This document shows, one piece after another, positions 42,446-62,124 of a stretch of 64,000 nt of DNA; position 1 is the stretch's first letter, and each line of letters begins with the position of its first letter. Under the pieces are notes generated by a model that was not told the origin of the DNA, ran no database searches, and saw nothing but the letters and a program-made list of their open reading frames with translations. The DNA is from Arthrobacter sp. Edens01 (GTDB lineage: Bacteria; Actinomycetota; Actinomycetes; Actinomycetales; Micrococcaceae). The DNA lies in contig NZ_LKIU01000004.1 of assembly GCF_001307035.1 (NCBI RefSeq), positions 155,811 to 219,810 on the forward strand. The letters are read 5' to 3'. The translations under genes and the position numbers were made by a program.

Positions 42446-43129
42446 CTAGCCAGGGTCGGCCAAGACCGCGTAGACCACGTAGTTGTCCTGCCAGAGTCCG
42501 GTGGTGCTGTCGAACCCGTCGCAGGTGATCAGGCGGAGTTCAGGACCCGGTGTGTTTCCGTAAACCTCATCAGTAGGGAACATGTCCTTGGCGTATTGCT
42601 CGCCCCGAACGACGACGAATACAGATTCTGTCCCGTCTTCGCGCTCTACTGCTATGTGGTCTCCCGGTACCAGGCTGCGAAGCCGGGCGAAGACTCCCGG
42701 GCCGCCGTCGTTGGCATTGACGTGGCCCAGCAGGATGGCCGGACCGGGTTTACCAGGAGCGGGTGAACCCGTGTACCAACCGGCGGGGGATCCGGGAGAT
42801 GCCGGAGGCACTTCAAGGGTTCCATCCGGCAGTAGCCCGAGCTCCATCAGCTCCGACCTGGTCTGGATTGTGGGCAGGGAGACGATGCTCGGCGATGCCG
42901 GAGCGGCTTCGGCGCCGGGCTGAGCATCTTGCGGAAGTGCGGGGAGCGGACGAAGGGCATCATCAGCCGGTCCCTGGGCCGGGATCTGGGGTAGGGCAAA
43001 GTAGCGGGGTCCGGCGTCATCGGGTGTGCTCGTATCACCGGCGCCGCCAAGGAGGAACGCCGCGGCGGCGGCCACCAGAACCATTCGGCTCCGGCGGCCG
43101 CTGCCGCGGGATTCTACGTGTCGTCCCAA
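42446..43129 (-). CDS. class F sortase
   Basis: A 227-residue membrane-anchored sortase. An N-terminal helix (VLVAAAAAFLLGG) precedes a Pro-rich linker and a sortase beta-barrel with catalytic His in ILLGHVNAN, Cys in RLITCDGFD and the C-terminal YVVYAVL strand. Class F enzymes are typical of actinobacteria and their substrates are poorly known. It starts 6 bp after the stop of the excalibur surface protein, at TTG 43129 (GTG 43117 or ATG 43084 are alternatives), so the pair forms one operon. Confidence 0.9.
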   Translation of the reverse strand: MGRHVESRGSGRRSRMVLVAAAAAFLLGGAGDTSTPDDAGPRYFALPQIPAQGPADDALRPLPALPQDAQPGAEAAPASPSIVSLPTIQTRSELMELGLLPDGTLEVPPASPGSPAGWYTGSPAPGKPGPAILLGHVNANDGGPGVFARLRSLVPGDHIAVEREDGTESVFVVVRGEQYAKDMFPTDEVYGNTPGPELRLITCDGFDSTTGLWQDNYVVYAVLADPG

Positions 43130-43135
43130 CGCAGG

Positions 43136-43552
43136 CTAGGCGTGGTTTCCGGACTTGCGCCGCAGCCCGGCAGCGATGCCTGCGACGGCGACTACGCCAC
43201 CAGCGGCGAGGAGAACGCCGGTGGCGTCGGTGCCCTTGTCCGCGGGCGCACCTGTGTTGGCTCCGCCCTTGGGGGTGTTCCCGATCTGATTGTTGACGGG
43301 GGGCACCGTCGTCGTGGTGGGTGATGGAGACGGGGGAACGGGTGACGACGTGGGGCCTTCGCAAGCGACGCCGTCTCCATCTCGGTCCAGGCTCGGCTCA
43401 TAGCCCGGCTGGCCTTCGGCAATGTTGTAAACGCCTTCAGCAGCAGCGGCGTCGCAGTTGGCATACGGCGGAGCCGCGGCAGCCGGCGAAGCTGCCAGTG
43501 CAGTGAAGCCAAATGCGGCCGCAATGGTGAGTCCAGTCAGGGTCTTTTTCAC
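43136..43552 (-). CDS. excalibur-domain surface protein, putative sortase substrate
   Basis: A 138-residue exported protein. Signal peptide (FGFTALAASPAAAA), excalibur calcium module (YANCDAAAAEGVY, PSLDRDGDGVACEG), a Ser/Thr/Pro spacer (SPVPPSPSPTTTTVPP), then a sorting-signal layout: polar motif KGGANTGAPAD, hydrophobic helix VLLAAGGVVAVAGIAAGL and basic tail RRKSGNHA. No LPXTG is present; GANTG could be an LAXTG-like variant. GTG 43552 has GGAGG upstream. Co-transcribed with the class F sortase that probably processes it. Confidence 0.85.
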   Translation of the reverse strand: MKKTLTGLTIAAAFGFTALAASPAAAAPPYANCDAAAAEGVYNIAEGQPGYEPSLDRDGDGVACEGPTSSPVPPSPSPTTTTVPPVNNQIGNTPKGGANTGAPADKGTDATGVLLAAGGVVAVAGIAAGLRRKSGNHA

Positions 43553-49056: not shown

Positions 49057-49151
49057 CACCGGCCGCACCCGTTTAGTCTTCTCGCGGGTGTCTTGGGCTG
49101 CTGCGACATGTGACCGTCAGTTTGCAGACTCTGACAGGTCGCCACTGTAGG

Positions 49152-49163
49152 ATTGTAGACAAG
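49152..49163. promoter_or_regulatory. operator ATTGTAGACAAG before the FCD GntR gene
   Basis: It shares AGGATTGTnGACAA with the site at 54644-54655. Position 52 bp upstream of the likely regulator start suggests autoregulation. Confidence 0.6.
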
Positions 49164-49214
49164 TTACAGTGCTGCCTTCGCTGGACTGCGCGTCCTCGGA
49201 AGGCCCCTAGCGAA

Positions 49215-49904
49215 GTGTGGTTTCCGTTGGCAATCTTTGAGCCCGTAGTCCGCGAGTCAACGCCGTCGATCATTGCCGGAAAACTGAGGACTGCCATTGG
49301 CCGGGGGCAGATTCCGGCCGGCAGCCAGCTGGTGGAAACCGAGCTGGCACGGGAGCTGGGCGTGAGCCGCGGACCGTTGCGGGAAGCCATGCAGCGCCTC
49401 ACCCAGGAGGGCCTGCTGATCAGCATCCGAAACCGCGGGATCTTCGTCATCACCATGACGGAGGAGGAAGTGCAGGACATGTACGTGGCGCGCACCGCCG
49501 TCGAACGTGCCGCAGCCGAACTGATCCTGCAGAAGGACGGCGGCAAGGACATCGCCGCACAGCTTTCACGCGTGGTCAAAGCCATGAAAAAGGCGGCCGA
49601 CAAAGCGGACCTCGATGCCATGTCCGAAGCGGACATGGAGTACCACTCCACGCTGGTCGCAGCAGCTGAAAGCCCGCGCCTGAGCCGGATGCACAACACC
49701 CTCCTCACCGAGACCCGCATGTGCCTCACCGCTCTGGAACAGCGTTATCCCGACCCGCACACCCGGGTGGGTGAACACCAGGCTATTGCCGATGCGCTGG
49801 CGAAAGATGACCAGGATCTGGTGGGGAAACTGCTGATCCGGCACATGGACGATGCCCTGGACCGGCTGACCGGCAGCGGGAGCGCTGACGCCGCAACTGC
49901 CTAG
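49215..49904 (+). CDS. FCD-type GntR regulator of the 50-62 kb catabolic cluster
   Basis: About 229 residues. Winged helix (LRTAIGRGQIPAGSQLVETE, LARELGVSRGPLREAMQRLT) and FCD domain with metal ligands in EADMEYHSTLVAAAESPRLS and VGEHQAIADALA. Start is unsure: GTG 49215 or TTG 49227 fit the alignment better than the frame's first codon at 49110, which runs across the operator. It converges on the M20 gene, 28 bp away, and shares an operator with the divergent promoter at 54.65 kb. Confidence 0.9.
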   Translation: MWFPLAIFEPVVRESTPSIIAGKLRTAIGRGQIPAGSQLVETELARELGVSRGPLREAMQRLTQEGLLISIRNRGIFVITMTEEEVQDMYVARTAVERAAAELILQKDGGKDIAAQLSRVVKAMKKAADKADLDAMSEADMEYHSTLVAAAESPRLSRMHNTLLTETRMCLTALEQRYPDPHTRVGEHQAIADALAKDDQDLVGKLLIRHMDDALDRLTGSGSADAATA

Positions 49905-49932: not shown

Positions 49933-51129
49933 TCAACAAACAGACCCGTGCCGCAGGCACATCAGTGCATAGGCCCGGGCCGCGGCCAGCAGTTCAGCCA
50001 CACTCACGGATTCGTTGACCTGATGCGCCTGGTCATTGAGACCGCCGGGACCCATCACGATCACCGGTATGCTGAAGTCCCGGGCAATAAACCCGCCGTC
50101 GCACGCCGCGGTCCAGCCCGTGACGGCACTGTCCACGCCAACTTCCGCCAACGCGGAGACAGTACCCGCAACCAGGGGATGGCCGGAGGTCGTGCGGAAC
50201 CCGGGCATCTCCATGGTCACGGTCCCTTCGACGGTGATCCCATCGGAGTCGATCCCCGCTGCCCGGATCCCGGCGAGAAGCGAGGCCAGGATCTCCTCCG
50301 GATCCTCGCCGGGCATCAGTCGCCGGTCCAAGGACAGATGGCAGGAATCGGCGACCATCGAGGTGCCGGTTCCGCCGCGGATCATACCGGTGTTCCAGGA
50401 ACCCGAACCCAGCAGAGGATCGGCGTCAGCCTGCAGCCGGGCGTGGTCCGCGCGGACCAGATCCAGGATCCGTGCCGCCGCATCGATGGCGTTGCGGCCG
50501 TCCGCAGGTCGCCCGGAGTGTGCTGACTTCCCGGTGACGTGCAGTTCGAGATAACTGTCGCCGCGGCAGGCTATGACTGTTTCGAGGTCTGTTGGTTCGG
50601 CCACCACGCACGCGGAATAGGGGAACGGGCCGGTGCCCGCGGTGAAGGCCCGGATGCCGAGACCGAGGTCTTCCTCATCCACGGTGCACGCAAGGGCAGC
50701 GGGCCCGGGCAGCTCGACGCCGGCAGTCCGCAGCGCCCTCAGCGCAATCAGGATGGCAGCCAAGCCGCCCTTCATGTCCGTGGAACCCCGGCCATACAGC
50801 CGCCCGCCGCGGACATACGGTTCAAACGCAGGCCGGTCCCAGCCGGAACCGGCGGGCACAACGTCGGAATGCCCCAGAAAGAGCAGGCCCGGCCGGGTGC
50901 CGCCCGGCAGCACCGCGGTGAGGTTCGGCCGGTCGGGAGCCACCTCGGACACCATCACTTCCAGCCCGGCCGCCCGGGCAAACTCCGCCAGCACCACGAC
51001 GGTGGCAGCTTCGGTTCCACCGGGGTTTTCCCCGCCGGCAGAAATCAGCTCCGAGGCAAGCGCCACCAGTTCGTCTTCCCGGATGAGCTCCAGGACGGTC
51101 TCTTCCATAACGGAGGGCTTAACGCTCAC
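49933..51129 (-). CDS. M20-family deacylase/peptidase (ArgE/DapE-like)
   Basis: A 398-residue co-catalytic metallohydrolase. Metal ligands lie in FLGHSDVVPAG, GRGSTDMKGGLAA, CTVDEEDLGLG and the C-terminal GGLNDQAHQVNESVSV. Family members remove acyl groups from acylated amino acids or cleave dipeptides. GTG start at 51129 overlaps the upstream aminotransferase stop by 4 bp. Last gene of the leftward catabolic arm; a decayed copy of its 3' part is at 62408-62790. In this context an N-acyl amino acid intermediate is a reasonable substrate. Confidence 0.92.
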   Translation of the reverse strand: MSVKPSVMEETVLELIREDELVALASELISAGGENPGGTEAATVVVLAEFARAAGLEVMVSEVAPDRPNLTAVLPGGTRPGLLFLGHSDVVPAGSGWDRPAFEPYVRGGRLYGRGSTDMKGGLAAILIALRALRTAGVELPGPAALACTVDEEDLGLGIRAFTAGTGPFPYSACVVAEPTDLETVIACRGDSYLELHVTGKSAHSGRPADGRNAIDAAARILDLVRADHARLQADADPLLGSGSWNTGMIRGGTGTSMVADSCHLSLDRRLMPGEDPEEILASLLAGIRAAGIDSDGITVEGTVTMEMPGFRTTSGHPLVAGTVSALAEVGVDSAVTGWTAACDGGFIARDFSIPVIVMGPGGLNDQAHQVNESVSVAELLAAARAYALMCLRHGSVC

Positions 51130-52406
51130 GCACCCGCCCCGGAATCCAGCCCCGCCAGCTCCCGGTCCATCGCCCGGCGCAGCCGGAGAATGCCTTCCTC
51201 AGCCCGCTCGGGAGTGGTGGACGCGAAGCAGAGCCGCAGGGCGTCGTCGAACTTCCCGCTGGGAGACAGCGCCGGCCCGGGGATAAAGGCAACCCCTTCT
51301 GCCAGGGCCGTCTCAAAGAGTTTCTGCGTGGAGATCCGCGCGTCCGGTCCCTGCAGGGTGAGCCAGAGGAAAAAGCCGCCCTCGGGATCGGTGGTGGTGA
51401 TGCGGCTGCCCAGATGCCGGTGCAGGTTCTCTTGCATGGCGTCCTTGCGGCGCTTGTACTCGGTGCGCAGTCCAGCGAGGTGGTCGTTCAGGCCGCCGCG
51501 GCGGATGAACTCAGCGACGAGGTGCTGGGCAGGAACATTGGTGCACGTGTCCATGGCCTGCTTGGCGTTGATGACCAGCTGCCGGAGTGAGGGATCGGTG
51601 TCCACCCAGCCCACGCGCAGGCCGGGGGCCAGGATCTTGGAGAACGTGCGGACCGAGAAGAGCAGCGGATCGCCCGGGCTCAGCGCCTGCAGCGACGGCA
51701 GATCCTCACCCTGGAAACGGAGCAGGCCGTAGGGGTCGTCGTCGATGATGACGGCGTTCCACTCGTGGGCCAGTTCCAGCAGCCGGTGCCTCCGCTCCAG
51801 GGAGAGGGTGACGCCGGAGGGATTCTGGAAGTTGGGGATCGTGTAAATGGCCTTCGGCGTCCGCCCGGCCGCGGCGATAAGCTCCGGCAGGGCCTCCACG
51901 ATCAGACCGTCCTGGTCCACCGGGGCTTCCAGCAGGTCCGCGCCGTAGCTCAGCGCGGTGGCGCTGCCGTTGGTGTAGGTGGGGCTCTCCACGATCACCA
52001 GGTCACCGGGATTGATGAAGATCTTGCAGGCCAGGTCCAGGCCCTGCATGCCTCCTGCGGTGATGGTGATGCGGTCGGCGTCCACAGGGTCCGCGGTTCC
52101 GGCCAGATAGTCCACCAGCGCCTCCAGCAGCACCGGTTCGCCCTCGGTGGCGCCGTAGGTCAGGGAGCTGTGGTCCAGCACCTGTGCGGCAATATCCCTG
52201 AACTCCTCCAGCGGCACTGCTTCGTCGGCCGGGGAACCCATGGCGAAACGGACAATGTCATGTGTCTGGGACGCCAGCAGCGAGGTACTTGAATCAATCA
52301 CGGAGCCCACCAGCCCGGCGGCACGGTCTGCCAGGGGAAGTATGGCCCGGTCGCCAGCGGCGGAACGCGTCGGCTGGGAGCGGGCGGCGTAGGAGTTCAC
52401 GGTCAT
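51126..52406 (-). CDS. PLP-dependent class I/II aminotransferase (2-aminoadipate/MocR-like)
   Basis: A 426-residue fold-type I enzyme. Key features are TAGGMQGLDLACKIFINPGD, PNFQNPSGVTLSLERR, IDDDPYGLLRFQGE and the Schiff-base Lys in VRTFSKILAPGLRVGW. It is closest in style to LysN/2-aminoadipate aminotransferases and to the enzyme half of MocR proteins, but has no DNA-binding domain. It lies between the M24 and M20 genes in one operon. A decarboxylase is less likely. Confidence 0.9.
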   Translation of the reverse strand: MTVNSYAARSQPTRSAAGDRAILPLADRAAGLVGSVIDSSTSLLASQTHDIVRFAMGSPADEAVPLEEFRDIAAQVLDHSSLTYGATEGEPVLLEALVDYLAGTADPVDADRITITAGGMQGLDLACKIFINPGDLVIVESPTYTNGSATALSYGADLLEAPVDQDGLIVEALPELIAAAGRTPKAIYTIPNFQNPSGVTLSLERRHRLLELAHEWNAVIIDDDPYGLLRFQGEDLPSLQALSPGDPLLFSVRTFSKILAPGLRVGWVDTDPSLRQLVINAKQAMDTCTNVPAQHLVAEFIRRGGLNDHLAGLRTEYKRRKDAMQENLHRHLGSRITTTDPEGGFFLWLTLQGPDARISTQKLFETALAEGVAFIPGPALSPSGKFDDALRLCFASTTPERAEEGILRLRRAMDRELAGLDSGAGA

Positions 52407-52409
52407 CGG

Positions 52410-53591
52410 TTAGCTGCCTTTCTGGAGCAGTTCGCGCGGGAAGCTGGTGAGTGTTTCCACGCCGTCGGAACTGACGCAGATTGATTCGGAAAGTTCGTAG
52501 CCGTAGCCTTCCATCCACATGCCGCCAATGAGGTGGAAGGTCATGTTCTCCGCGAGGATGGTCTCGTCCTCGGAGCGGAGGGAGATGGTGCGCTCGCCCC
52601 AGTCCGGCGGATAGCCGATCCCGATCGAATAGCCGATGCGGGACGGCTTCTCCAGTCCGTACTTGCCCAGGGTCCGGTTCCAGGTGCGGGCCAGTTCGCT
52701 GACCGGTACTCCGGGCTGGATTTCGGTGAGCACCGCGTCCAGCCCGTCAGCAACGGCGTCGGCCAGTTTCCCGAGCCGGGGCGAGGGAGTGCCGAGTACC
52801 ACCGTGCGCGCCAGCGGGGCGTGATAGCGGCGGTACGCTCCGGCGAGTTCCACCACCACCGCCTGCCCGGCCTGGAAGCGGTCCTCGCTCCAGGTCAGGT
52901 GCGGGGTGTCTGCCGCTTCACCGGTGGGGAGCATCGGCACAATCGCCGGGTAGTCCCCGCCGGTGCCGTCCACACCGGTGATCTGTGCCTGGCTGATGGC
53001 CGCTGCGGCGTCGCACTGGCGGACGCCGACGGCGATGCTCGCGACGGCGGCTTCCATGGCTCCGTTGCAGATCCGCGCGGCTTGGCGCATCAGGTCGAGC
53101 TCGGCGGGCGACTTGACCGACCGGACCCAGTTCACGAGTTCGAAGCAGTCCACCAGCGTCCACTCCGGCAGTGCATTGACCAGGGCGCGGTAACCCTTGG
53201 GGGAGAAGAAATGGGAGTCCATCTCCAGGCCCACGCAGCCCGCTGCTGCCGGGGCAATCAGCGCGCGCTCGCGGAGGGCGAAGGCAATCCAGTCAAAGGG
53301 ATGCAGGTGCGGCCGGTGCACGTACCGCTCCGGATAGCCCACGATGTTGTCCGGCGGAAGCCAGCTGGTGCGTGATGCGCCGCCGGCGTCCATTTCCCGG
53401 GCGAAGAAGAGCATTGGCCCGTCGGCGGGTACAAAGAGGACCTGGGGTGTGTAGAAGGACCAGGCGTTGTACCCGGTGAGGTAGTAGAGGTTCGCCGGGT
53501 CCGTCACCAGCAGGGCCGAGAGACCCTGCCGGGCCATGCGTGCACGGACTCCGGCAAGCCGGGCGTCGTATTCCTCTTGGCTGAACAGCAA
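52410..53591 (-). CDS. M24-family hydrolase, ectoine hydrolase (DoeA/EutD)-like
   Basis: A 393-residue creatinase/prolidase-fold protein. Several stretches recall ectoine hydrolases: TGYNAWSFYTPQVLFV, GGDYPAIVPMLPTGEAADTP, YHAPLARTV, GYPPDWGERTISLR and WMEGYGYELSE. Like creatinase, it lacks most canonical dinuclear metal ligands of aminopeptidase P, which argues for a ring- or amidine-opening hydrolase. TTG start at 53591 has GGAGGT 6 nt upstream. It is second in the leftward operon. A Xaa-Pro peptidase remains possible. Confidence 0.75.
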   Translation of the reverse strand: MLFSQEEYDARLAGVRARMARQGLSALLVTDPANLYYLTGYNAWSFYTPQVLFVPADGPMLFFAREMDAGGASRTSWLPPDNIVGYPERYVHRPHLHPFDWIAFALRERALIAPAAAGCVGLEMDSHFFSPKGYRALVNALPEWTLVDCFELVNWVRSVKSPAELDLMRQAARICNGAMEAAVASIAVGVRQCDAAAAISQAQITGVDGTGGDYPAIVPMLPTGEAADTPHLTWSEDRFQAGQAVVVELAGAYRRYHAPLARTVVLGTPSPRLGKLADAVADGLDAVLTEIQPGVPVSELARTWNRTLGKYGLEKPSRIGYSIGIGYPPDWGERTISLRSEDETILAENMTFHLIGGMWMEGYGYELSESICVSSDGVETLTSFPRELLQKGS

Positions 53592-53631
53592 ACGGGTACC
53601 TCCACATAGCTGGAAACTGCTGGAACGGCGG

Positions 53632-54618
53632 TTAGACGGATGAACTCACATAGCCGCGCTGCTTGTCCACCACGTTCTCCGGGATACTGCCGGCGGACCA
53701 GCGCTGGAGGTTGGTGAGGAACTGCAGCGCCAGGGTGTTCCGCCAGCCCCGGATGTCCCCGGACATATGTGCGGAAACGTGCACGTTCTCCGTGCCCCAG
53801 AACGGGTGGGAGGCGGGCACTGGCTCTTCGCGGAAGACATCCAGGGACGCGGCCGCGATTTGGCCGGTTCGGAGCGCCTGCAGCAGGGCGTCTTCATCCA
53901 CGAGGGCTCCGCGGCCCACGTTGACCAGGTGGGCGGAGGGCTTCATGGCGGCCAGGACGGCGCCGTCCACCAGATCCCGGGTCTGGTCGGTGAGCGGTGC
54001 GGCGAGGACCAGGTGGTCTGCCCAGCCGGCGTGTTCTGCCAGTTCTGCGCTGGGAACCACCGTGCCAAAGTCCGGGTCGTCCTCCCGTGCGGTCCGTCCC
54101 ACGCCGCGGACGGAGAGCCCGACGGCGCGCAGCAGCCTTGCTGTCGCACGCCCGATTCCGCCGGTGCCTACCACCAGGGCGCGGGAGCCATGTGTACCGG
54201 TGAGTTCGCGGTGCTGCCACACTGCCTCCTGCTGCAGTCGCTTGGACAGATGCAGCTGTTTGTCCTGCGCCAGGACGGACGCGAGGACAAACTCGGCGAT
54301 CGGCTGGTCGAAGACGCCGTGGGCGTTCGTCAGAACCACATCCGAACGGCGAAGGTCCTCAAAGAGCATGGCATCTACGCCGGCGGCTGCCACGTGGACC
54401 CATTCCAGCGAATCGGCATAGGGCCAGGCATCGGCCAGCGCGGAGGAGAAAAAGTCCCAGAGGAACAGTGCCCGGGCCCCCGGCATCGCATTGGCGAGGC
54501 CGGCGGCGTCGGTGATCCTCACGTCTGCCAGGGCCTGGATCTCCGCCAGATTACTGGGCAGGGGCTGGCCGGGAGCCGCTAGGATGACCAGACGCGGTTT
54601 GCTCACAGTGTTACTCAC
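53632..54618 (-). CDS. D-2-hydroxyacid dehydrogenase (NAD-dependent)
   Basis: A 328-residue D-isomer-specific dehydrogenase. It has the NAD fold VVGTGGIGRATARLL, the substrate Arg in NVGRGALVDEDAL, and the catalytic His in the variant HVSAHMSGDIRGW. Such enzymes interconvert 2-oxo and D-2-hydroxy acids. GTG 54618 (or GTG 54606) starts the leftward arm. The promoter -10-like ATACGG ends about 8 bp before 54618, so the message may be leaderless. Confidence 0.88.
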   Translation of the reverse strand: MSNTVSKPRLVILAAPGQPLPSNLAEIQALADVRITDAAGLANAMPGARALFLWDFFSSALADAWPYADSLEWVHVAAAGVDAMLFEDLRRSDVVLTNAHGVFDQPIAEFVLASVLAQDKQLHLSKRLQQEAVWQHRELTGTHGSRALVVGTGGIGRATARLLRAVGLSVRGVGRTAREDDPDFGTVVPSAELAEHAGWADHLVLAAPLTDQTRDLVDGAVLAAMKPSAHLVNVGRGALVDEDALLQALRTGQIAAASLDVFREEPVPASHPFWGTENVHVSAHMSGDIRGWRNTLALQFLTNLQRWSAGSIPENVVDKQRGYVSSSV

Positions 54619-54625
54619 GCCACAA

Positions 54626-54677
54626 CCGTATCTCCATTGCAGGATTGTTGACAATAGACATGTGTGAGCTGCATCAT
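54626..54677. promoter_or_regulatory. divergent promoter with central operator ATTGTTGACAAT
   Basis: The palindrome ATTGTTGACAAT (54644-54655) contains both -35 elements: TTGACA (54648-54653) for the right arm, spaced 18 bp from CATCAT (54672-54677), and TTGTCA on the minus strand spaced 17 bp from ATACGG (54631-54626). Predicted starts fall at or near the ATG 54684 and GTG 54618, consistent with leaderless messages. A repressor bound here would block both arms. Confidence 0.65.
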
Positions 54678-54683
54678 GGCCGC

Positions 54684-55997
54684 ATGACTTCCCTCAGCCC
54701 CGCCCTCAAGCAAGCCACTCCCGTGATCGTGGACCACGCCCTCGGCTGCTGGATCCACGGCACCGACGGCCGGGACTACCTGGACTTCACCACCGGCATC
54801 GGCGTCACCAGCACCGGTCACTGCCATCCCAAAGTAGTGGAAGCCGCGCGGGAACAGGTCGGGAAGATCATCCACGCGCAGTACACCACCGTGATGCACA
54901 AACCGCTGCTGGAACTGACGGAAAAGCTCGGCGAAGTCCTTCCAACCGGACTGGACTCAGTGTTCTACGCGAACTCCGGCTCGGAAGCTGTCGAGGCCGC
55001 CGTCCGGCTGGCCCGCATGGCCACGGGACGGCCCAACATCGTGGTGTTCCAGGGCGGGTTCCACGGCCGCACGGTCGCCGCAGCATCCCTGACGACGGCG
55101 GGCACCAAGTTCTCCGCCGGCTTCGCACCGCTCATGGCCGGCGTCCACATGGCCGCCTTCCCCTACGCCTACCGCTATGGCTGGGACGAAGACACCGCCG
55201 TCGCGTTCGCCCTGCAGGAACTGGACTACCTGCTGCAGACCCGCACCGATCCGAAGGACACCGCCGCGTTCCTGATCGAACCGGCACTTGGCGACGGCGG
55301 CTACCTGCCCACCCCGCCGGCCTTCCTGGAGGGCCTGCGGGAACGTGCGGACAAGTACGGCATCCAGCTGATCATTGACGAAGTGCAGGCCGGCGTCGGC
55401 CGCATGGGCAAGTTCTGGGGCCACCAGTACTCCAGCGCCGTCCCGGACATCCTCATCACCGCCAAGGGCATCGCCTCCGGCTTCCCCATTTCAGCGATCG
55501 CTGCATCGACGGAGACCATGTCCAAGGCATGGCCCGGTTCCCAGGGAGGAACCTACGGTGGCAACGCAGTGTCTGCCGCCGCCGGCGTCGCGACCCTGGA
55601 AGTGGTGCAGGAAGAAAACCTGGTGGAGAACTCCCAGATCCGCGGCGAACAGCTCCAAACGGGGCTGCTGGAGATCCAGGAACGGTTCCCGGTGATCGGC
55701 AACGTCCGCGGGCTGGGGCTGATGCAGGGCATCGAGTTCACCGGCCAGGACGGGACGCCCGACGCCGCCACGGCCGCCGCCGTGCAGCAGGCCACCACCG
55801 AGCAGGGACTGCTCACGCTGACCTGCGGACCGGCCGGCAACGTGGTCCGGCTGATCCCGGCACTGGTGGTCTCGGCCGAGGAAATCGCCACGGGACTGGA
55901 ACGCTTCGAAGCCGCGCTCGCCGCCGTCGCGGGTGCTGTTCCGGCCGCGGCTGGAACCGCGCCTGCAACCACCTCGGCAAGCACGGAGCGCCGATGA
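54684..55997 (+). CDS. class III aminotransferase (4-aminobutyrate/diaminobutyrate type)
   Basis: A 437-residue PLP enzyme with YANSGSEAVEAAVRLAR, GGFHGRTVAAASLT, LIIDEVQAGVGRMGKFW and the Schiff-base Lys near 260 in LITAKGIASGFPISA. Class III enzymes move omega or distal amino groups (GABA, ornithine, diaminobutyrate) and give semialdehydes. That suits the aldehyde dehydrogenase two genes later. ATG 54684 is preferred; ATG 54660 is in frame. ATGA overlap with the next gene. Confidence 0.92.
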   Translation: MTSLSPALKQATPVIVDHALGCWIHGTDGRDYLDFTTGIGVTSTGHCHPKVVEAAREQVGKIIHAQYTTVMHKPLLELTEKLGEVLPTGLDSVFYANSGSEAVEAAVRLARMATGRPNIVVFQGGFHGRTVAAASLTTAGTKFSAGFAPLMAGVHMAAFPYAYRYGWDEDTAVAFALQELDYLLQTRTDPKDTAAFLIEPALGDGGYLPTPPAFLEGLRERADKYGIQLIIDEVQAGVGRMGKFWGHQYSSAVPDILITAKGIASGFPISAIAASTETMSKAWPGSQGGTYGGNAVSAAAGVATLEVVQEENLVENSQIRGEQLQTGLLEIQERFPVIGNVRGLGLMQGIEFTGQDGTPDAATAAAVQQATTEQGLLTLTCGPAGNVVRLIPALVVSAEEIATGLERFEAALAAVAGAVPAAAGTAPATTSASTERR

Positions 55998-58900
55998 CAA
56001 AAACCGGCCTCGCCGCCCCGTCTGCAGCTGCCGCCGGCGCACCGGATGCCGGTGAGCTGCTGGACGGGCTGGCCGCGGCGGGAGTCGAAGCCGACGGTTC
56101 GTCCCGCCGGCGGGCGGAGTATTCCTTCGACGCCTCGAACTACCGGGTACCGCCGCTGGCTGTGGTGTTCCCGCGGTCGGTAGACGACGTCGTCGCTGTC
56201 CTGAAAGTGTGCCGGGAGACCGGGACGCCGCTGATCAGCCGCGGCGGCGGCACGTCCATGGCCGGCAACGCGGTTGGCCCCGGCGTGGTGCTGGACTTTT
56301 CCCGGTATCTGAACCGGATCGGCACCGTGGACGAGGACGCCCGAACAGTGGCCGTGGAACCCGGCGTCGTGCTTGCGGTCCTGAGCCGGGAAGTCGAACG
56401 CGCCACCGGCAACCGGTTCAGTTTTGCCCCCGATCCGTCCTCCAGGAACCGTGCCACTGTGGGCGGGGCGCTGGGCAACGACGCGTGCGGTAACCACTCG
56501 GTGCGCTACGGCCGCACCTCGGACCATGTGGCGGAGCTCGACGTCGTCACGGCCGACGGCGCGCAGCTCACCGCCACCGGGACAGGGATCCGGGCCACCC
56601 ATCCCGGGGATGCGTACTCCGAACAGCGTGCCGCCGAACTGGCCGCGGGGCTTCAGGACCTGGCGCATTCCAACCTGGCCGGTTTCCGGACCGAACTCGG
56701 ACGGATCCAGCGTCAGGTCTCCGGCTATCACCTGGCCAACCTGCTGCCTGAGCACGGCTTCAACGTGGCCCGCGCGCTCGTGGGGTCGGAGGGCACCTGC
56801 GCCGTGATCGTTGGTGCGCGGATGAAGCTGGTGCCCAAACCGGCCAGCGCGCTGCTGGTCTGCCTCGGCTACGAGGATGTGGTGGAGGCCGCCCGGGACA
56901 TCGGAACCATCCTCGAGTTTTCGCCCGCCGCCGTCGAGGGCATCGACGAAGCCATCGTGGACACCATGCGGTTCCGCCGCGGCGCGAACTCGGTGACCGG
57001 CCTGCCCGCGGGCAGGGCCTGGCTGTACGTGGATCTCGACGGCGACGACCCCGCCTCCGTGCAGGTCGACGCGGACCGGCTGCTGGCCCGGCTGCAGGAA
57101 AACGGCCGGCTGGTCGAGGGACGTCCGGTGCCGGACGGCGTCGAACGGGCATCGCTGTGGCGGGTACGGGAAGACGGGGCCGGGCTGTCCTCGCGGCTGT
57201 CCACCGGAGGGGAGTCCTGGCCCGGGTGGGAGGATTCCGCCGTCGCACCGGAGAACCTGGCCGATTACCTGGCGGACTTCCGGGACCTGCTGGCCCGCTT
57301 TGAGCTGAAGGGTGTGATGTACGGGCACTTCGGCGCCGGCTGTATGCACATCCGCATTACCTATGACCTGCGGACCGATGCCGGCCGGGCCGTGTTCCGG
57401 GAGTTCTCCCGGGAAGCGGCGGAGCTGGTGGTGCGGCACGGCGGATCACTCTCCGGGGAGCATGGTGACGGCAGGGCGCGGTCCGAGCTGCTGCCGCTAA
57501 TGTATTCGCCACGGATGCTGGCCGCCTTTGCTGAGTACCGGCGGCTCTGGGATCCGGACGGGATCCTGAACCCCGGATCGCTGACGGACCCGGATCCGAT
57601 CGACGCGCATCTGGCCCTGCAAGGCGTGCCCAGCCGGGAATGGCGGACCAGCTTTGATCTGCGGCCGCTGCACGCCGGTGGCGGATCGACTGCTGAAACC
57701 GACGATCCCGGTACGTCGGCCGGAGCCGCGGTGGACCCCTTTGTCCATGCGGTGCAGAGCTGCATCGGAGTGGGCCGCTGCCGTACCGACACCGGCGGGG
57801 TGATGTGTCCAAGCTACCGGGCCACCCGGGATGAGAAGGACTCCACCCGGGGACGGGCGCGGGTGCTGCAGGAAATGGTCCGCGGTGCGCGCACTGTGGA
57901 GGAGGGATGGAAGTCCGAGGAGGTCCGCGAAGTTCTGGACCTTTGCCTGTCCTGTAAGGCGTGCTCCACAGACTGTCCCACCGGCGTGGACATGGCGACC
58001 TACAAGTCGGAGTTCTTTGACCACTACTACCGGGGACGGCTGCGGCCGCTGTCGCACTTTTCGCTGGGCTGGCTGCCGCGCTGGCTGAAGCTCACCGGCC
58101 GGATTGCCCCGCTGGTCAACGCCGTGCTGGCCACACCGTTTGGGAAGGTTGCTGCCCGGCTGGGCGGACTGACCACGGAACGGTCGCTGCCGCGGTTCGC
58201 ACCTGCGGGGGCGTGGCGGAAGGAAGTCGCTGCGGCTTCTTCGGCGGCGGGCACACCGGGCGCACCGGGAGGACCGGGCGGAACCGGGAATGAGGTGCGC
58301 GGCGCAGAGGCGAGCGGCGCGGCCGTGACAGGCGTAGCCGGGCGGAACGCCGGCGTCGTGCTTTTTGTGGACACCTTCACCCGGGGTTTCCGTCCCGAGG
58401 TGGCCGGTGCGGCCGCCCGCGTCCTGGAAGGGGCGGGGGAGCGGACGGAATGCTCGGCCGATGCGTGCTGCGGCCTGACGTGGATTTCCACCGGGCAACT
58501 CGGCACGGCGAAAAAGGTGCTGGCGAAAGCTGCCGAAACGCTGGATGACGGGACCGAGCGGCCGATCGTCGTCGTCGAGCCCAGCTGCGCCGCCGCGCTG
58601 CGGAAGGACCTGCCCGAACTGGTGCATACCGACCAGGCCCGCCGGGTCGCCGCACGGGTCCGCAGTTTCGCCGGGTACGTGGGCGAGCTTGCGGCCTCCG
58701 GGTGGACACCGGCGCCGGCTGCCGCGCTGCCGGAGAAGGTGGTGCTGCAGACGCACTGCCACGAGTACTCCGTCTTCGGTGCCGGAACGCAGAAGACCGC
58801 GCTCGCAGCTCTCGGGATTCCGGAGGTGGTGGACGCTACCGGGTGCTGCGGTGTGGCCGGGAACTTCGGGTTCGAGAAAGACCACTACGAGGTCAGCATG

Positions 58901-59116
58901 CAGGTGGCTGAGCAGGCTCTGGCACCTGCGCTGCGCGGCACGGATGCCGGAACAGTGGTCCTCACCGATGGTTTCTCCTGCGCCATGCAGGTTCAGCAGC
59001 TCGACGCCGCCCGGCCCGGCACCCACCTGGCCCAGCTCCTTGACCCCGGCACCGGGCCCAACCTGGACGCCCCGACCAGCTTCCCGACCCCTCAAGCAAA
59101 GGACTCCGAAGAATGA
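55994..59116 (+). CDS. YdiJ-like FAD-linked oxidase fused to Fe-S subunit (D-2-hydroxyacid/2-hydroxyglutarate dehydrogenase)
   Basis: A 1040-residue fusion. Residues 45-270 form the PCMH FAD domain (PLISRGGGTSMAGNAVGPG, GNDACGNHSVRYGRTSDHV), then the FAD-oxidase C domain with YGHFGAGCMHIRITYDLRTD and GSLSGEHGDGRARSELL. Two 4Fe-4S clusters follow (CIGVGRCRTDTGGVMCPSYR at about 590 and CLSCKACSTDCPTGVDM at about 650), then two CCG domains (ACCGLTW near 824, TGCCGVAGNFGFE near 949). Size and order match YdiJ, a D-2-hydroxyglutarate dehydrogenase. Overlaps both neighbours by 4 bp. Confidence 0.9.
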   Translation: MTKTGLAAPSAAAAGAPDAGELLDGLAAAGVEADGSSRRRAEYSFDASNYRVPPLAVVFPRSVDDVVAVLKVCRETGTPLISRGGGTSMAGNAVGPGVVLDFSRYLNRIGTVDEDARTVAVEPGVVLAVLSREVERATGNRFSFAPDPSSRNRATVGGALGNDACGNHSVRYGRTSDHVAELDVVTADGAQLTATGTGIRATHPGDAYSEQRAAELAAGLQDLAHSNLAGFRTELGRIQRQVSGYHLANLLPEHGFNVARALVGSEGTCAVIVGARMKLVPKPASALLVCLGYEDVVEAARDIGTILEFSPAAVEGIDEAIVDTMRFRRGANSVTGLPAGRAWLYVDLDGDDPASVQVDADRLLARLQENGRLVEGRPVPDGVERASLWRVREDGAGLSSRLSTGGESWPGWEDSAVAPENLADYLADFRDLLARFELKGVMYGHFGAGCMHIRITYDLRTDAGRAVFREFSREAAELVVRHGGSLSGEHGDGRARSELLPLMYSPRMLAAFAEYRRLWDPDGILNPGSLTDPDPIDAHLALQGVPSREWRTSFDLRPLHAGGGSTAETDDPGTSAGAAVDPFVHAVQSCIGVGRCRTDTGGVMCPSYRATRDEKDSTRGRARVLQEMVRGARTVEEGWKSEEVREVLDLCLSCKACSTDCPTGVDMATYKSEFFDHYYRGRLRPLSHFSLGWLPRWLKLTGRIAPLVNAVLATPFGKVAARLGGLTTERSLPRFAPAGAWRKEVAAASSAAGTPGAPGGPGGTGNEVRGAEASGAAVTGVAGRNAGVVLFVDTFTRGFRPEVAGAAARVLEGAGERTECSADACCGLTWISTGQLGTAKKVLAKAAETLDDGTERPIVVVEPSCAAALRKDLPELVHTDQARRVAARVRSFAGYVGELAASGWTPAPAAALPEKVVLQTHCHEYSVFGAGTQKTALAALGIPEVVDATGCCGVAGNFGFEKDHYEVSMQVAEQALAPALRGTDAGTVVLTDGFSCAMQVQQLDAARPGTHLAQLLDPGTGPNLDAPTSFPTPQAKDSEE

Positions 59117-60597
59117 CAACGCAAACGAGCACCACCTCGCAGGCTGCCCGGGACGCCGTCGCCAAGGTCAGCACCGGCGTGTTCATTGACGGGCAGTGGA
59201 GCGAGGCGGCGTCCGGTGCCCGGTTCGACGTCGTGAATCCCGCTACCGAAGAGGTCATCGCCACGGTGGCCGACGGCGGTCCGGAGGACGCGCAGCGCGC
59301 GATCGAAACCGCCGGACGGGTGCAGAAGGAATGGGCCGCGACGGCGCCGCGGGAACGCAGCGAGATCCTGCGCCGCGCTTATGACCTGATCATGGCCCGG
59401 CAGGATGAGCTGGCACTGATCATGACCACGGAGATGGGCAAACCGCTGGCCGAGGCCAAGGGCGAGGTCGCATACGCTGCCGAGTTCTTCCGCTGGTTCT
59501 CCGAGGAAGCCGTGCGGATCGGCGGTGACTTCTCCTCCACAGGCGACGGGAAGACCCGGATCCTGGTGTCCAAGGAACCCGTGGGGCCGTGTGTGCTGGT
59601 GACGCCGTGGAATTTCCCGTTGGCTATGGGCACCCGGAAGATCGGCCCGGCCATCGCGGCGGGCTGCACCATGGTGTTCAAGCCGGCCAACCTGACGCCG
59701 CTGTCCTCGCTGGCGCTGGTGGACATCCTGGTGGAAGCCGGGCTGCCCGCCGGAGTCCTGAACGTGGTGTGCACGTCGAAGGCGTCCTCGGTGGTGTCGC
59801 CGTGGATGTCCAGCGGCATTGCCCGGAAGGTCAGCTTCACCGGCTCCACCGCCGTGGGCGTGCGGCTGCTGGAGCAGGCCGCGGAGCATGTGATGCGCTC
59901 CTCGATGGAACTGGGCGGCAACGCACCGTTCATTGTCTTCGAGGACGCGGACCTGGACCGTGCCGTGGACGGCGCCGTGGCCGCGAAAATGCGGAACATG
60001 GGGGAGGCCTGCACCGCCGCGAACCGGCTGCTTGTGCAGCGTTCGGTCGCGGATGAGTTCGCCCGCCGGCTCGCCGCCCGTCTGGGCGCGCTCTCGGTGG
60101 GTGACGGCGCGGAGCCGGGCACCGACGTCGGGCCCCTGGTGGAGGAGAAAGCGCTGTCCAAGGTGCAGGAACTGGTGGACGACGCCGTCGCCAAGGGTGC
60201 GGAGGTAATCTGCGGAGGTTCGCGGCCGGAGCGGCCCGGGTACTTCTACGCGCCGACGGTCCTGTCCGGGGTGAATCCGGAGTCGGACCTGATGAATGAG
60301 GAGATTTTCGGTCCGGTGGCGCCCGTCATCCCGTTCGATACCGAGGACGAGGTCACCCGGCTGGCGAACGATACTCCGTGGGGCCTGGTCGGCTACCTGT
60401 TCACGCAGGACGTGGACCGTGGTTTCCGGATGGGCGAGGCGCTGGAGGTGGGCATGGTCGGGCTGAACACCGGCATTGTCTCCAACCCGGCAGCACCGTT
60501 CGGCGGCGTCAAGGCATCCGGCCTGGGCCGCGAAGGCGGGCGCGTGGGGATTGAAGAGTTCCTGGAAACGAAGTACCTGGCGATGCCCAGGACCTAG
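59113..60597 (+). CDS. NAD(P)-dependent succinate-semialdehyde dehydrogenase-like enzyme
   Basis: A 494-residue aldehyde dehydrogenase. Catalytic Glu is near 264 (SMELGGNAPFIVFEDADLD) and Cys near 299 (GEACTAANRLLVQ), with TPWNFPLAMGTRKIGPAIA and FTGSTAVGVRLLEQ. The GabD branch oxidises succinate semialdehyde; aspartate semialdehyde is also possible in this context. ATGA overlap with the YdiJ gene. Confidence 0.93.
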   Translation: MTTQTSTTSQAARDAVAKVSTGVFIDGQWSEAASGARFDVVNPATEEVIATVADGGPEDAQRAIETAGRVQKEWAATAPRERSEILRRAYDLIMARQDELALIMTTEMGKPLAEAKGEVAYAAEFFRWFSEEAVRIGGDFSSTGDGKTRILVSKEPVGPCVLVTPWNFPLAMGTRKIGPAIAAGCTMVFKPANLTPLSSLALVDILVEAGLPAGVLNVVCTSKASSVVSPWMSSGIARKVSFTGSTAVGVRLLEQAAEHVMRSSMELGGNAPFIVFEDADLDRAVDGAVAAKMRNMGEACTAANRLLVQRSVADEFARRLAARLGALSVGDGAEPGTDVGPLVEEKALSKVQELVDDAVAKGAEVICGGSRPERPGYFYAPTVLSGVNPESDLMNEEIFGPVAPVIPFDTEDEVTRLANDTPWGLVGYLFTQDVDRGFRMGEALEVGMVGLNTGIVSNPAAPFGGVKASGLGREGGRVGIEEFLETKYLAMPRT

Positions 60598-60681
60598 GTT
60601 GATGGCCCGGCAGGGGACCGGGCAGCAGAGCAGCACACGGCACCACCGAAGCAGCCAATCACTCGTATGAAGGATGGACCG

Positions 60682-62124
60682 ATGTCAGCTAACTCCCAGC
60701 CCCTAAATGCACCCGCCCCGGTTCCGGGCGCCGAACCCGAAGGCAGGGAAGCGAAAAAGACCCTGCACCGGTCCATCCTCGGCTCGGCCCTGGGCAATGC
60801 CGTTGAGTGGTTCGACTACGGGGTCTACGGCTACCTGACCATTTACATGGCCGTGAACTTCTTCGGGTCGGAAGACGGCGACGGCGGCCTGGGCGTCACG
60901 CTCACGCTCGCCACCCTGGCGCTGTCCTTCCTGGTCCGTCCGCTGGGCGGTCTGATCCTGGGCCCGCTGGGGGACAAGGTGGGCCGGCAGAAGGTCATGG
61001 TGCTCACCGTGACGCTGATGACCCTGGCCACCGGCTGCATCGGGCTGCTGCCGACGTTTGAAACGGCGGGCCTGCTGGCTCCGGTGCTGCTGCTGATCTG
61101 CCGTCTGGTGCAGGGGTTCTCTGCCGGCGGCGAGTACGGCGGTGCTGCGGTGTATATGGCGGAGTCGGCTCCGGATAAGCGCCGTGGTTTCTTCGGGTCG
61201 TTCCTCGAGTTCGGCACCACGGTGGGCTTCATCCTTGCGGCGATTGTCTGCACCACTACCATCACCCTGGTTGGCGACGAGGGGATGCTGGAGGGCTGGT
61301 GGCGGCTGCCGTTCCTGCTGACCATTCCGCTGGGTCTGACGGCACTGTGGATCCGGACCCGGCTGGTGGAGGCTCCGGTCTTCGCGGAGGCCTCGGCGCA
61401 CCGGGAGACCCTGAAGTCCCCGCTGCGGCAGGTGCTGGCGCAGAACTGGCGGCAGCTGCTGGTCCTGGCCGGGTTTGTGGTGCTGTTGAACGTGGCGTTC
61501 TACCTGATCCTCGGATACATGCCCACCTACATGAGCGGGCAGCTGGGGCACAGCACCGCGCAGGGCAATTGGATGCTGGTGGCCGTGATGGCTCTGATGC
61601 TGCTGGCGATTCCGCCGGTCGGTGCGCTCTCTGACCGGATAGGCCGCAAACCGCTGCTGCTGACCGCGGCTGTTGGCTACATTGTGCTCTCGGTTCCGGC
61701 GATCATGCTCCTGGGTGTGGAGAGCCTGATCCTGCAGTTCCTAGGACTGGCTGTATTGGGCTTCCTGCTGGTGATCCTAGTGTCCTCGGTGTCATCCACG
61801 CTGCCTGCACTGTTCCCGACGGCGGTCCGGTACACGGGCTTTGCCCTGGCCTATAACTTCTCTACGGCCTTCTTTGCCGGTCCGTCGCAGACCATCGCCA
61901 ACCAGCTGATCGAGACGACCGGGAATCAGCTGGTGCCGGGCTGGTACATGGCGATTGCCGGCGTCATCGGCCTGGTGAGCATCCTGTGCATGCGGGAGAC
62001 CGCCCAGGCAACGCTGCGCGGCGAAGTGATTCCCGGCGCTCCGGATTCAGTGGGCTGGCCGAAGAAGGTTTATCTGGAGGAGAACCGGGTGGATGCTGAG
62101 GAGCGGCGGCGGGTGGGGGTTTAA
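60682..62124 (+). CDS. MHS-family (ProP-like) metabolite:H+ symporter
   Basis: A 480-residue MFS transporter with 12 helices. MHS signatures are LGNAVEWFDYGVYGYL, RPLGGLILGPLGDKVGRQK, RLVQGFSAGGEYGGAAVYMA and SVSSTLPALFPTAVRYTG. Family members import proline, betaine, ectoine, shikimate or dicarboxylates. Start ATG 60682 after AAGGATGG. Last gene of the rightward arm; likely imports the cluster's substrate. Confidence 0.93.
   Translation: MSANSQPLNAPAPVPGAEPEGREAKKTLHRSILGSALGNAVEWFDYGVYGYLTIYMAVNFFGSEDGDGGLGVTLTLATLALSFLVRPLGGLILGPLGDKVGRQKVMVLTVTLMTLATGCIGLLPTFETAGLLAPVLLLICRLVQGFSAGGEYGGAAVYMAESAPDKRRGFFGSFLEFGTTVGFILAAIVCTTTITLVGDEGMLEGWWRLPFLLTIPLGLTALWIRTRLVEAPVFAEASAHRETLKSPLRQVLAQNWRQLLVLAGFVVLLNVAFYLILGYMPTYMSGQLGHSTAQGNWMLVAVMALMLLAIPPVGALSDRIGRKPLLLTAAVGYIVLSVPAIMLLGVESLILQFLGLAVLGFLLVILVSSVSSTLPALFPTAVRYTGFALAYNFSTAFFAGPSQTIANQLIETTGNQLVPGWYMAIAGVIGLVSILCMRETAQATLRGEVIPGAPDSVGWPKKVYLEENRVDAEERRRVGV

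Follow-up and report, generated by a model that had tools for sequence, protein, structure and literature searches.

The window analysed here is a stretch of 64,000 nucleotides from Arthrobacter sp. Edens01 (contig NZ_LKIU01000004.1, positions 155,811 to 219,810), and it harbors between positions 49110 and 62124 a divergent cluster of catabolic genes together with a regulator. Ectoine is a widespread bacterial osmolyte, which protects cells against salt and also serves as a nutrient, and sequence comparison makes ectoine or hydroxyectoine the very probable substrate of this cluster. We propose, with a probability of roughly 0.42, that it serves the catabolism of ectoine (probably of 5-hydroxyectoine also), with the known route through aspartate replaced by a route through a D-2-hydroxy acid. 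The genes had been singled out in a first-pass annotation; their open frames were confirmed at the positions below, and family scans match the labels given there.

49110..49904, plus strand: regulator of the GntR/FCD family (Pfam GntR and FCD); a codon-usage model favours a start at 49215.
49933..51129, minus strand: deacylase of the M20 ArgE/DapE type (M20); TIGR01910 at 218.3 bits, just over the cut-off of 217.6; Pfam M20; sought motifs found.
51126..52406, minus strand: class I/II aminotransferase of the LysN/KAT-II type (AT1); matches the structures of an archaeal aminotransferase and of LysN; lysine motif for pyridoxal phosphate (PLP).
52410..53591, minus strand: putative ectoine hydrolase resembling DoeA/EutD (M24); TIGR02993 at 424.5 bits (cut-off 613); DoeA structure 6twk; phylogenetic tree.
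53632..54654, minus strand: NAD(P)-dependent D-2-hydroxyacid dehydrogenase (D2HDH); Pfam 2-Hacid_dh_C; the codon-usage model favours a start at 54606.
54645..55997, plus strand: class III aminotransferase (AT3); the codon-usage model starts it at 54660, and an ATG at 54684 would suit the N-terminus of the orthologue in locus L072.
55994..59116, plus strand: predicted FAD-binding/Fe-S oxidase of D-2-hydroxyacids, YdiJ-like; coordinates from the codon-usage model; 2HglutDHaseYdiJ at 436 bits.
59113..60597, plus strand: aldehyde dehydrogenase resembling succinate-semialdehyde dehydrogenase (SSADH); SSADH subfamily at 587.3 bits (cut-off 646); Glu and Cys motifs.
60667..62124, plus strand: MHS/ProP-like symporter, candidate ectoine importer; ProP model at 417.5 bits (cut-off 544).

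The minus strand carries D2HDH, M24, AT1 and M20 in this order, and AT3, YdiJ, SSADH and MHS follow one another divergently on the plus strand; the regulator lies beyond M20, also on the plus strand. M24-AT1-M20 probably form one coupled unit and AT3-YdiJ-SSADH another, because ATGA overlaps are found at AT3/YdiJ and YdiJ/SSADH, a GTGA overlap at AT1/M20 and a gap of only 3 bases between M24 and AT1. A sequence check found the motifs sought in M20, in AT1 and AT3, in SSADH, in D2HDH and in YdiJ; we take them to have catalytic roles.

The likeness of M24 to DoeA/EutD, pointed out in the first-pass annotation, is borne out by a wide margin, as both the nearest curated family and the nearest solved protein are DoeA. 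The DoeA of Halomonas elongata (PDB entries 6twj, 6twk and 6yo9) belongs to the same M24 family and is 45% identical to the window protein, with 366 bits for 6twk against 81 bits for the best prolidase and 54 bits for the best creatinase. Both proteins carry the same residue at 12 of 12 motif columns, which were picked by motif by the analyst and are presumably catalytic; at least three of these columns are different in each of two distantly related Xaa-Pro peptidases. A role of M24 as prolidase, aminopeptidase P or creatinase was rejected on the scores together with the motif columns, and neither the scores nor the tree group it with prolidases or creatinase. The tree was built from 43 hand-picked rows, with four M24 paralogues of the same genome left out as unalignable. 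In it 25 actinobacterial proteins including that of the window form one clade (support 98/98), whose sister (89/89, not strong) unites canonical DoeA with proteins from haloarchaea, Shinella and two Rhizobiaceae. The canonical DoeA clade itself (100/100) contains H. elongata, Sinorhizobium meliloti, Haematobacter, a Rhizobium and four distant genomes of the same phylum. The closest named proteins are those of Arthrobacter pullicola and A. luteolus (93% and 91% identity), and their loci correspond to genomes of the window's genus. Thus M24 should, from its sequence, work like DoeA, yet by cut-off and tree it is no member of the canonical DoeA family.

It could be supposed that M24 is a DoeA paralogue of changed specificity and that the true substrate of the cluster is some other cyclic amidine or an N-acyl diamino acid, as the first-pass annotation had left open. 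The score under the DoeA cut-off and the separate clade are consistent with this, and so is the lack of any EhuB over its cut-off in the window's genome and in the two nearest relatives that bear the cluster. The complete agreement at the motif columns argues against it, as does the M24 of Paeniglutamicibacter (locus L077), which belongs to the same clade and follows the genes for EhuB, EhuC, EhuD and EhuA on the same strand, all four over their curated cut-offs. EhuC of Arthrobacter locus L059 and EhuB of a family relative (L041) are over cut-off too, and an EhuA-type gene of at least 50% identity is found in the fetched stretch of 9 of the 45 named loci described below. EhuB over cut-off was found in 25 of 53 M24-positive genomes and in none of 24 M24-negative ones (Fisher p 1e-5, not corrected for kinship); 20 of these 24 belong to the same genus as the window, and in the 77 genomes compared EhuB does not always lie close to M24. 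Of the two possibilities left by the first-pass annotation, ectoine or hydroxyectoine is thus favoured by sequence, motif columns and EhuABCD neighbours, and for the copy in the window a different substrate stays a rival, though an improbable one.

In the window's genome the MHS symporter is the candidate importer, as its best score is with ProP; ProP of Escherichia coli imports ectoine, as stated in a section of PMC5924519. Turnover of home-made ectoine is unlikely there, as the genome has no match to ectoine synthase (PF06339), which was found in 19 of the 53 M24-positive genomes.

The distribution of the cluster was followed with M24 (E 1e-60) and AT1 (E 1e-100) as queries across 295 genomes of the family. 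M24 is present in 53 of them and AT1 in 50, with both in 49. Within the genus M24 occurs in three genomes including the window's own, and 20 listed genomes of the same genus are without it, so the cluster is accessory. Across the wider phylum M24 has a match at E 1e-60 in 13 of 396 genomes; 10 of these genomes represent two other families, at 43–46% identity. These counts score only the best candidates of each genome (mostly 6 for M24, 6 for AT1, 7 for D2HDH, 14 for YdiJ and 47 for the reductase introduced below), so that an absence is not proof; for YdiJ, 14 of 25 candidates were scored in G259, 14 of 16 in G023 and G233, and 14 of 15 in G180. The line for orthologues, 60% identity, was drawn after the lists had been seen.

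Around M24 the same partners return. Among the 45 named loci found via M24, AT1 is present in 38 (in 37 at most 500 bases from M24), M20 in 36, a homologue of the regulator in 36, YdiJ in 32, D2HDH in 29 and AT3 in 29. Matches below 45% of the query length were dropped in this comparison, and absences from a locus may therefore be truncation; in Kocuria-type loci (L102, L104) D2HDH lies 11–13 kb from M24, beyond most fetched stretches. Since the partner genes recur across these loci, the cluster is not a chance grouping.

A further pattern concerns the reductase. D2HDH (at least 60% identity) is present in 39 of the 53 M24-positive genomes, and the remaining 14 consist of 10 with AT1 and 4 without it. 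A short-chain dehydrogenase/reductase (SDR) unrelated to D2HDH, taken as query from locus L056 where it lies near AT1, was sought in 57 genomes at E 1e-60 and found in 11, namely in those 10 AT1-positive genomes and in G006, which has AT1 and no M24. The 50 AT1-positive genomes are therefore divided into 39 with D2HDH and 11 with SDR; with the thresholds used, every one of them has exactly one of the two reductases. The four genomes with M24 and no AT1 (G082, G133, G148 and G288) have neither reductase. YdiJ follows the same division: D2HDH and YdiJ (at least 60%) occur together in 38 of the 53 M24-positive genomes, D2HDH alone in one, YdiJ alone in one (G288) and neither in 13, including all 10 SDR genomes. 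This pairing of YdiJ with D2HDH but not with SDR is as expected if SDR makes the L form of the hydroxy acid.

A comparable arrangement is found in haloarchaea, where 9 plasmid records were examined out of 18 haloarchaeal records listed. Their DoeA-like M24 proteins are 46–48% identical to that of the window. Near M24, 8 of the 9 records have an annotated D-2-hydroxyacid dehydrogenase, and 4 have a FAD/Fe-S protein resembling YdiJ. The same 8 records contain an “amidohydrolase”, which is an M20 protein by Pfam in the two tested, and Haladaptatus pallidirubidus is the exception. A gene for threonine ammonia-lyase is present in 7 of the 9 (the one compared is EutB-like, 36% identical to S. meliloti EutB), and in 4 a class III aminotransferase is within view along with a BCCT transporter. 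As the identity to the window proteins is only 34–38% for the dehydrogenase and 31–32% for the oxidase, this arrangement would be either old or convergent. AT1, D2HDH and YdiJ were listed as extra enzymes by the first-pass annotation; the co-occurrence counts support the view that all three do belong to the cluster, and the haloarchaeal arrangement supports it for D2HDH and YdiJ. The suggestion made there that the pathway passes through a D-2-hydroxyacid is supported in part, as far as D2HDH and YdiJ are concerned; the order of the steps is our inference.

The first-pass annotation had the deacylase as M20 and not as AstE-like DoeB, and DoeB/EutE (TIGR02994) is indeed over its cut-off in none of the 57 genomes. 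Matches below the cut-off occur in 12 of the 57 genomes, and the window's genome has no match at all, so that a DoeB encoded elsewhere in it was dismissed. M20 is likely to be the stand-in for DoeB. In G163 (locus L160) a sub-cut-off AstE-like match was considered together with the region of a D2HDH paralogue, and the two did not look like one cluster. AT1 was also considered as a MocR-type regulator (EnuR/EhuR) and rejected: it has no N-terminal winged helix and no GntR domain in a Pfam scan, and MocR-type profiles match it only past their DNA-binding part (NF052286, columns 111–451 only). D2HDH has the R/E/H motifs and reaches 202 bits with Dhydh_Halo (cut-off 400). The two top NCBIfam models of AT3 are broad ones (458 and 402 bits), and its best match in the PDB is GabT (1sf2). 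The models of 4-aminobutyrate (GABA) transaminases give it 276–343 bits versus 253–264 bits for those of diaminobutyrate transaminases, all under their cut-offs, which fits, weakly, 4-amino-2-hydroxybutanoate as its substrate. The YdiJ-like protein contains the Pfam domains FAD_binding_4, FAD-oxidase_C, Fer4 and CCG. It resembles YdiJ of E. coli, a D-2-hydroxyglutarate dehydrogenase, in its FAD and Fe-S parts and in its best-scoring NCBIfam model, but its 436 bits are far from the curated cut-off of 1350; the enzyme of E. coli is strictly specific for D-2-hydroxyglutarate (PMC9504171, in the part cited).

In the proposed route, all substrates and the order of steps of which are inferred, ectoine would enter the cell via the ProP-like MHS symporter (via EhuABCD in some relatives), and its ring would be opened by the DoeA-like M24 to N-acetyl-2,4-diaminobutyrate (ADABA). 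AT1 would strip off the α-amino group leaving a 2-oxo acid, and D2HDH would reduce this to the (R)-2-hydroxy acid. The acetyl group would be removed by M20, either before the AT1 step if it is on the α nitrogen or after the D2HDH step if it is on the γ nitrogen. The product of these steps would be (R)-4-amino-2-hydroxybutanoate, a hydroxylated GABA, which AT3 and the SSADH-like dehydrogenase would convert to D-malate. Finally, the YdiJ-like flavoprotein would oxidize D-malate to oxaloacetate, handing the electrons on to the respiratory chain. With SDR in place of D2HDH, L-malate would be formed, and no D-specific oxidase would be needed; in haloarchaea the same 2-oxo acid could arise from the hydroxyectoine product through the EutB-like dehydratase. 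Each gene would have a task in this scheme, and no futile cycle would arise, because the reductase and the oxidase act on different molecules. The whole D-malate route is possible rather than probable.

To act ahead of M20, AT1 requires an intermediate with a free α-amino group. DoeA of H. elongata formed γ-ADABA as well as α-ADABA, and γ-ADABA seems to be no substrate of DoeB (a section of PMC5924519); γ-ADABA also appeared unexpectedly in Ruegeria pomeroyi grown on ectoine (a section of PMC8739950). These occurrences of γ-ADABA make such an intermediate conceivable. If α-ADABA is the product, AT1 could act only after M20.

Several observations weigh against the proposed route. First, as described above, M24 does not reach the curated cut-off of TIGR02993, scores 213 of 575 bits with a second DoeA model (NF038259) and falls outside the canonical DoeA clade, and EhuB over cut-off is lacking from the window's genome as well as from the two closest relatives that have the cluster. 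Second, EutD of R. pomeroyi is reported to give α-ADABA, and the recombinant work, as cited from Mais 2020 in the relevant part of PMC8739950, ascribes no role to γ-ADABA. Third, YdiJ of E. coli and Pantoea has no detectable activity with D-malate according to the part of PMC9504171 concerned, although such activity exists in other D-2-hydroxyglutarate dehydrogenases. The remaining points concern distribution. G006 combines AT1 and SDR with a YdiJ orthologue (72%), having no M24 and no D2HDH above 60%, and this disagrees with an SDR route that never needs YdiJ. D2HDH of at least 60% occurs in six M24-negative genomes (G038, G151, G029, G109, G025 and G165), three of which also have YdiJ, paired with it; neither gene is thus tied to ectoine, and a broader function, for instance as a redox shuttle, would be in keeping with this. 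G259 has D2HDH and no YdiJ orthologue among the candidates scored or in L155, three Mobilicoccus genomes have D2HDH and, instead of a YdiJ orthologue, only YdiJ paralogues of 46–47% identity, and G082, G133 and G148 keep M24 in the absence of AT1, D2HDH and YdiJ. Besides, nine SDR clusters (L045, L054, L055, L056, L113, L114, L156, L158 and L159) have a different class III aminotransferase, which is ω-aminotransferase-like, and all of them except L055 have an alanine dehydrogenase. The SDR pattern goes with the type of cluster and may stem from very few events, and p values ignore kinship.

Part of these points can be accounted for by the known logic of ectoine degradation, with M20 in place of DoeB: M24 and M20 would lead to diaminobutyrate, AT3 to aspartate semialdehyde and SSADH to aspartate, AT1 would convert aspartate to oxaloacetate or transfer nitrogen, and D2HDH with YdiJ would shuttle electrons from NADH to the respiratory chain, e.g. 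by the 2-oxoglutarate couple. Of the enzymes concerned, the cluster has M24 and a deacylase as well as a class III aminotransferase and a dehydrogenase of the SSADH type. The three genomes with M24 and none of AT1, D2HDH and YdiJ agree with it, with M20 and MHS adjoining M24 in L152 and L154, as do the stand-alone D2HDH-YdiJ pairs of L143–L145 and the oxidation of D-2-hydroxyglutarate by the YdiJ proteins characterized so far (PMC9504171, in the part cited). On the other hand, it leaves unexplained why a reductase, either D2HDH or SDR, accompanies AT1 in 50 of 50 genomes and why YdiJ goes with D2HDH and not with SDR in M24-positive genomes; the preference of AT3 for GABA over diaminobutyrate transaminase models is also, weakly, against it. 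The degradation to aspartate is a tentative but quite possible explanation of the cluster.

The cluster may also be specialized for 5-hydroxyectoine, with the 2-hydroxy acid chemistry handling the hydroxyl group of this compound. An amidase and two EutA-like genes (maleate isomerase family) recur near the cluster in several genera, and EutA-like pairs are found near it in 10 of the 45 named loci; in the Arthrobacter loci such a pair is followed by EhuA, EhuD and EhuC.

L059:14609-21071: amidase and EutA-like pair with Ehu genes; similar in L060, L062, L063, L096, L097 and L101.
L069, L083, L089 and L102: further loci with the amidase and EutA-like pair.

Together these genes may form a module for hydroxyectoine; two of the EutA-like proteins were tested and reach 100 and 92 bits with a cut-off of 318. 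The EutB-like dehydratase of the haloarchaeal clusters likewise speaks for hydroxyectoine. However, no homologue of EutA, EutB or EutC was found in the window (tblastn, E 1e-5, queries from S. meliloti), and the nearest relatives (L057 and L058) carry AT1 and D2HDH and have no EutA-like genes in their fetched stretches. Such a specialization is very unlikely.

With the doeABCD/eutABCDE systems of Proteobacteria (Halomonas, Sinorhizobium and Ruegeria) the cluster shares the functions of a hydrolase and a deacylase, together with those of a class III aminotransferase and a dehydrogenase of the SSADH type, as well as EhuABCD in several relatives. It differs from them by M20 in place of DoeB, by a GntR/FCD regulator in place of EnuR/AsnC and by the presence of AT1, of D2HDH or SDR, and of YdiJ; unlike eutABCDE, the window has no EutA, EutB and EutC. 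Ectoine catabolism was validated only in a small number of Proteobacteria, as stated in the main text of Boas Lichty et al. 2026 (PMC13188858). For Bacillota, Actinomycetota and haloarchaea the same text describes ectoine clusters that it treats as provisional; these have no biochemical proof and combine eutB-eutC-eutD with abgB (M20), thrA and adh. Those Gram-positive and haloarchaeal clusters resemble the present one in a DoeA-like M24, the lack of EutE, an M20-type protein (abgB), an aminotransferase and an MFS or BCCT transporter, but per the main text they carry eutB, eutC, thrA and pucR. The words “hydroxyacid”, Arthrobacter and Kocuria do not occur in that main text, figures and supplements being outside this check. 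A survey of Kocuria reports doeA in all its strains, and the parts of it consulted contain nothing on ectoine catabolism (PMC12343579). One hydroxyacid dehydrogenase near ectoine genes is mentioned in a figure legend of PMC5924519, with a role “yet undefined”. In a search of the open literature no ectoine-titled paper uses any of four names of proposed intermediates, and within the literature searched the present combination seems to be undescribed.

Some related loci show the genes in other contexts. A divergent D2HDH-YdiJ pair is found at L143:8601-11900, L144:6394-10382 and L145:6941-10955, with no AT3, SSADH, M24 or AT1 in the fetched stretch; the neighbours of the pair tested in L143 and L145 are unrelated. 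L150:8078-15244 contains AT1, SDR and a LysR regulator, without M24; a gene resembling homoserine dehydrogenase lies nearby, as do an aldehyde dehydrogenase and another SDR, and the locus would be another use of this aminotransferase-reductase pair. In L148 and L149 (genus g13) a D2HDH relative (54–60%) lies between an amidase and a GntR-type regulator, again without M24. Arthrobacter sp. H14 has two complementary partial clusters (L071 and L066), one with D2HDH, YdiJ, M24, AT1 and M20, the other with AT3, SSADH, M24, AT1 and MHS. Ten stretches of distant genomes of the same phylum (L128–L137) contain DoeA-like genes, in 8 of the 10 together with an M20-type gene (30–35% identical to that of the window), and most of them lie beside Ehu-type genes; the four M24 proteins of this set placed in the tree fall into the canonical DoeA clade. 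M20 may replace DoeB there too. A Priestia plasmid (L179:7729-17216) carries eutB, a DoeA-like M24, a cyclodeaminase, a PLP enzyme of the cystathionine-γ-synthase family, M20, homoserine dehydrogenase and aldehyde dehydrogenase; this cluster may represent a third solution for comparable reactions.

As for the surroundings of the cluster, the gene clusters c55 and c93 (window positions 42446-43552) lie beyond its GntR side in the window but next to its MHS side in A. luteolus (L058). Since they sit on opposite flanks, the cluster seems to have been inverted or moved relative to its surroundings between the two. The G+C content is 63–70% throughout; a tRNA scan of the 40–64 kb region found none, no proper search for island borders having been made, and the scan for inverted repeats was short-range only.

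Taken more broadly, the data would be compatible with a second, chemically different ectoine pathway in actinobacteria and haloarchaea, in which the α-amino group would be lost first, the resulting 2-oxo acid would be protected as an (R)-2-hydroxy acid and brought to D-malate and oxaloacetate, and one electron pair would pass to the respiratory chain, with a parallel SDR/L-malate version; in this generality the proposal is tentative and somewhat short of probable. If true, it would provide a testable ectoine pathway for actinobacteria, where M24 is present in 53 of the 295 genomes of the family, and would suggest how cells without DoeB manage. It would also give a role to D-2-hydroxyacid dehydrogenases found near ectoine genes and a function to proteins that are labelled only “M24 family metallopeptidase”.

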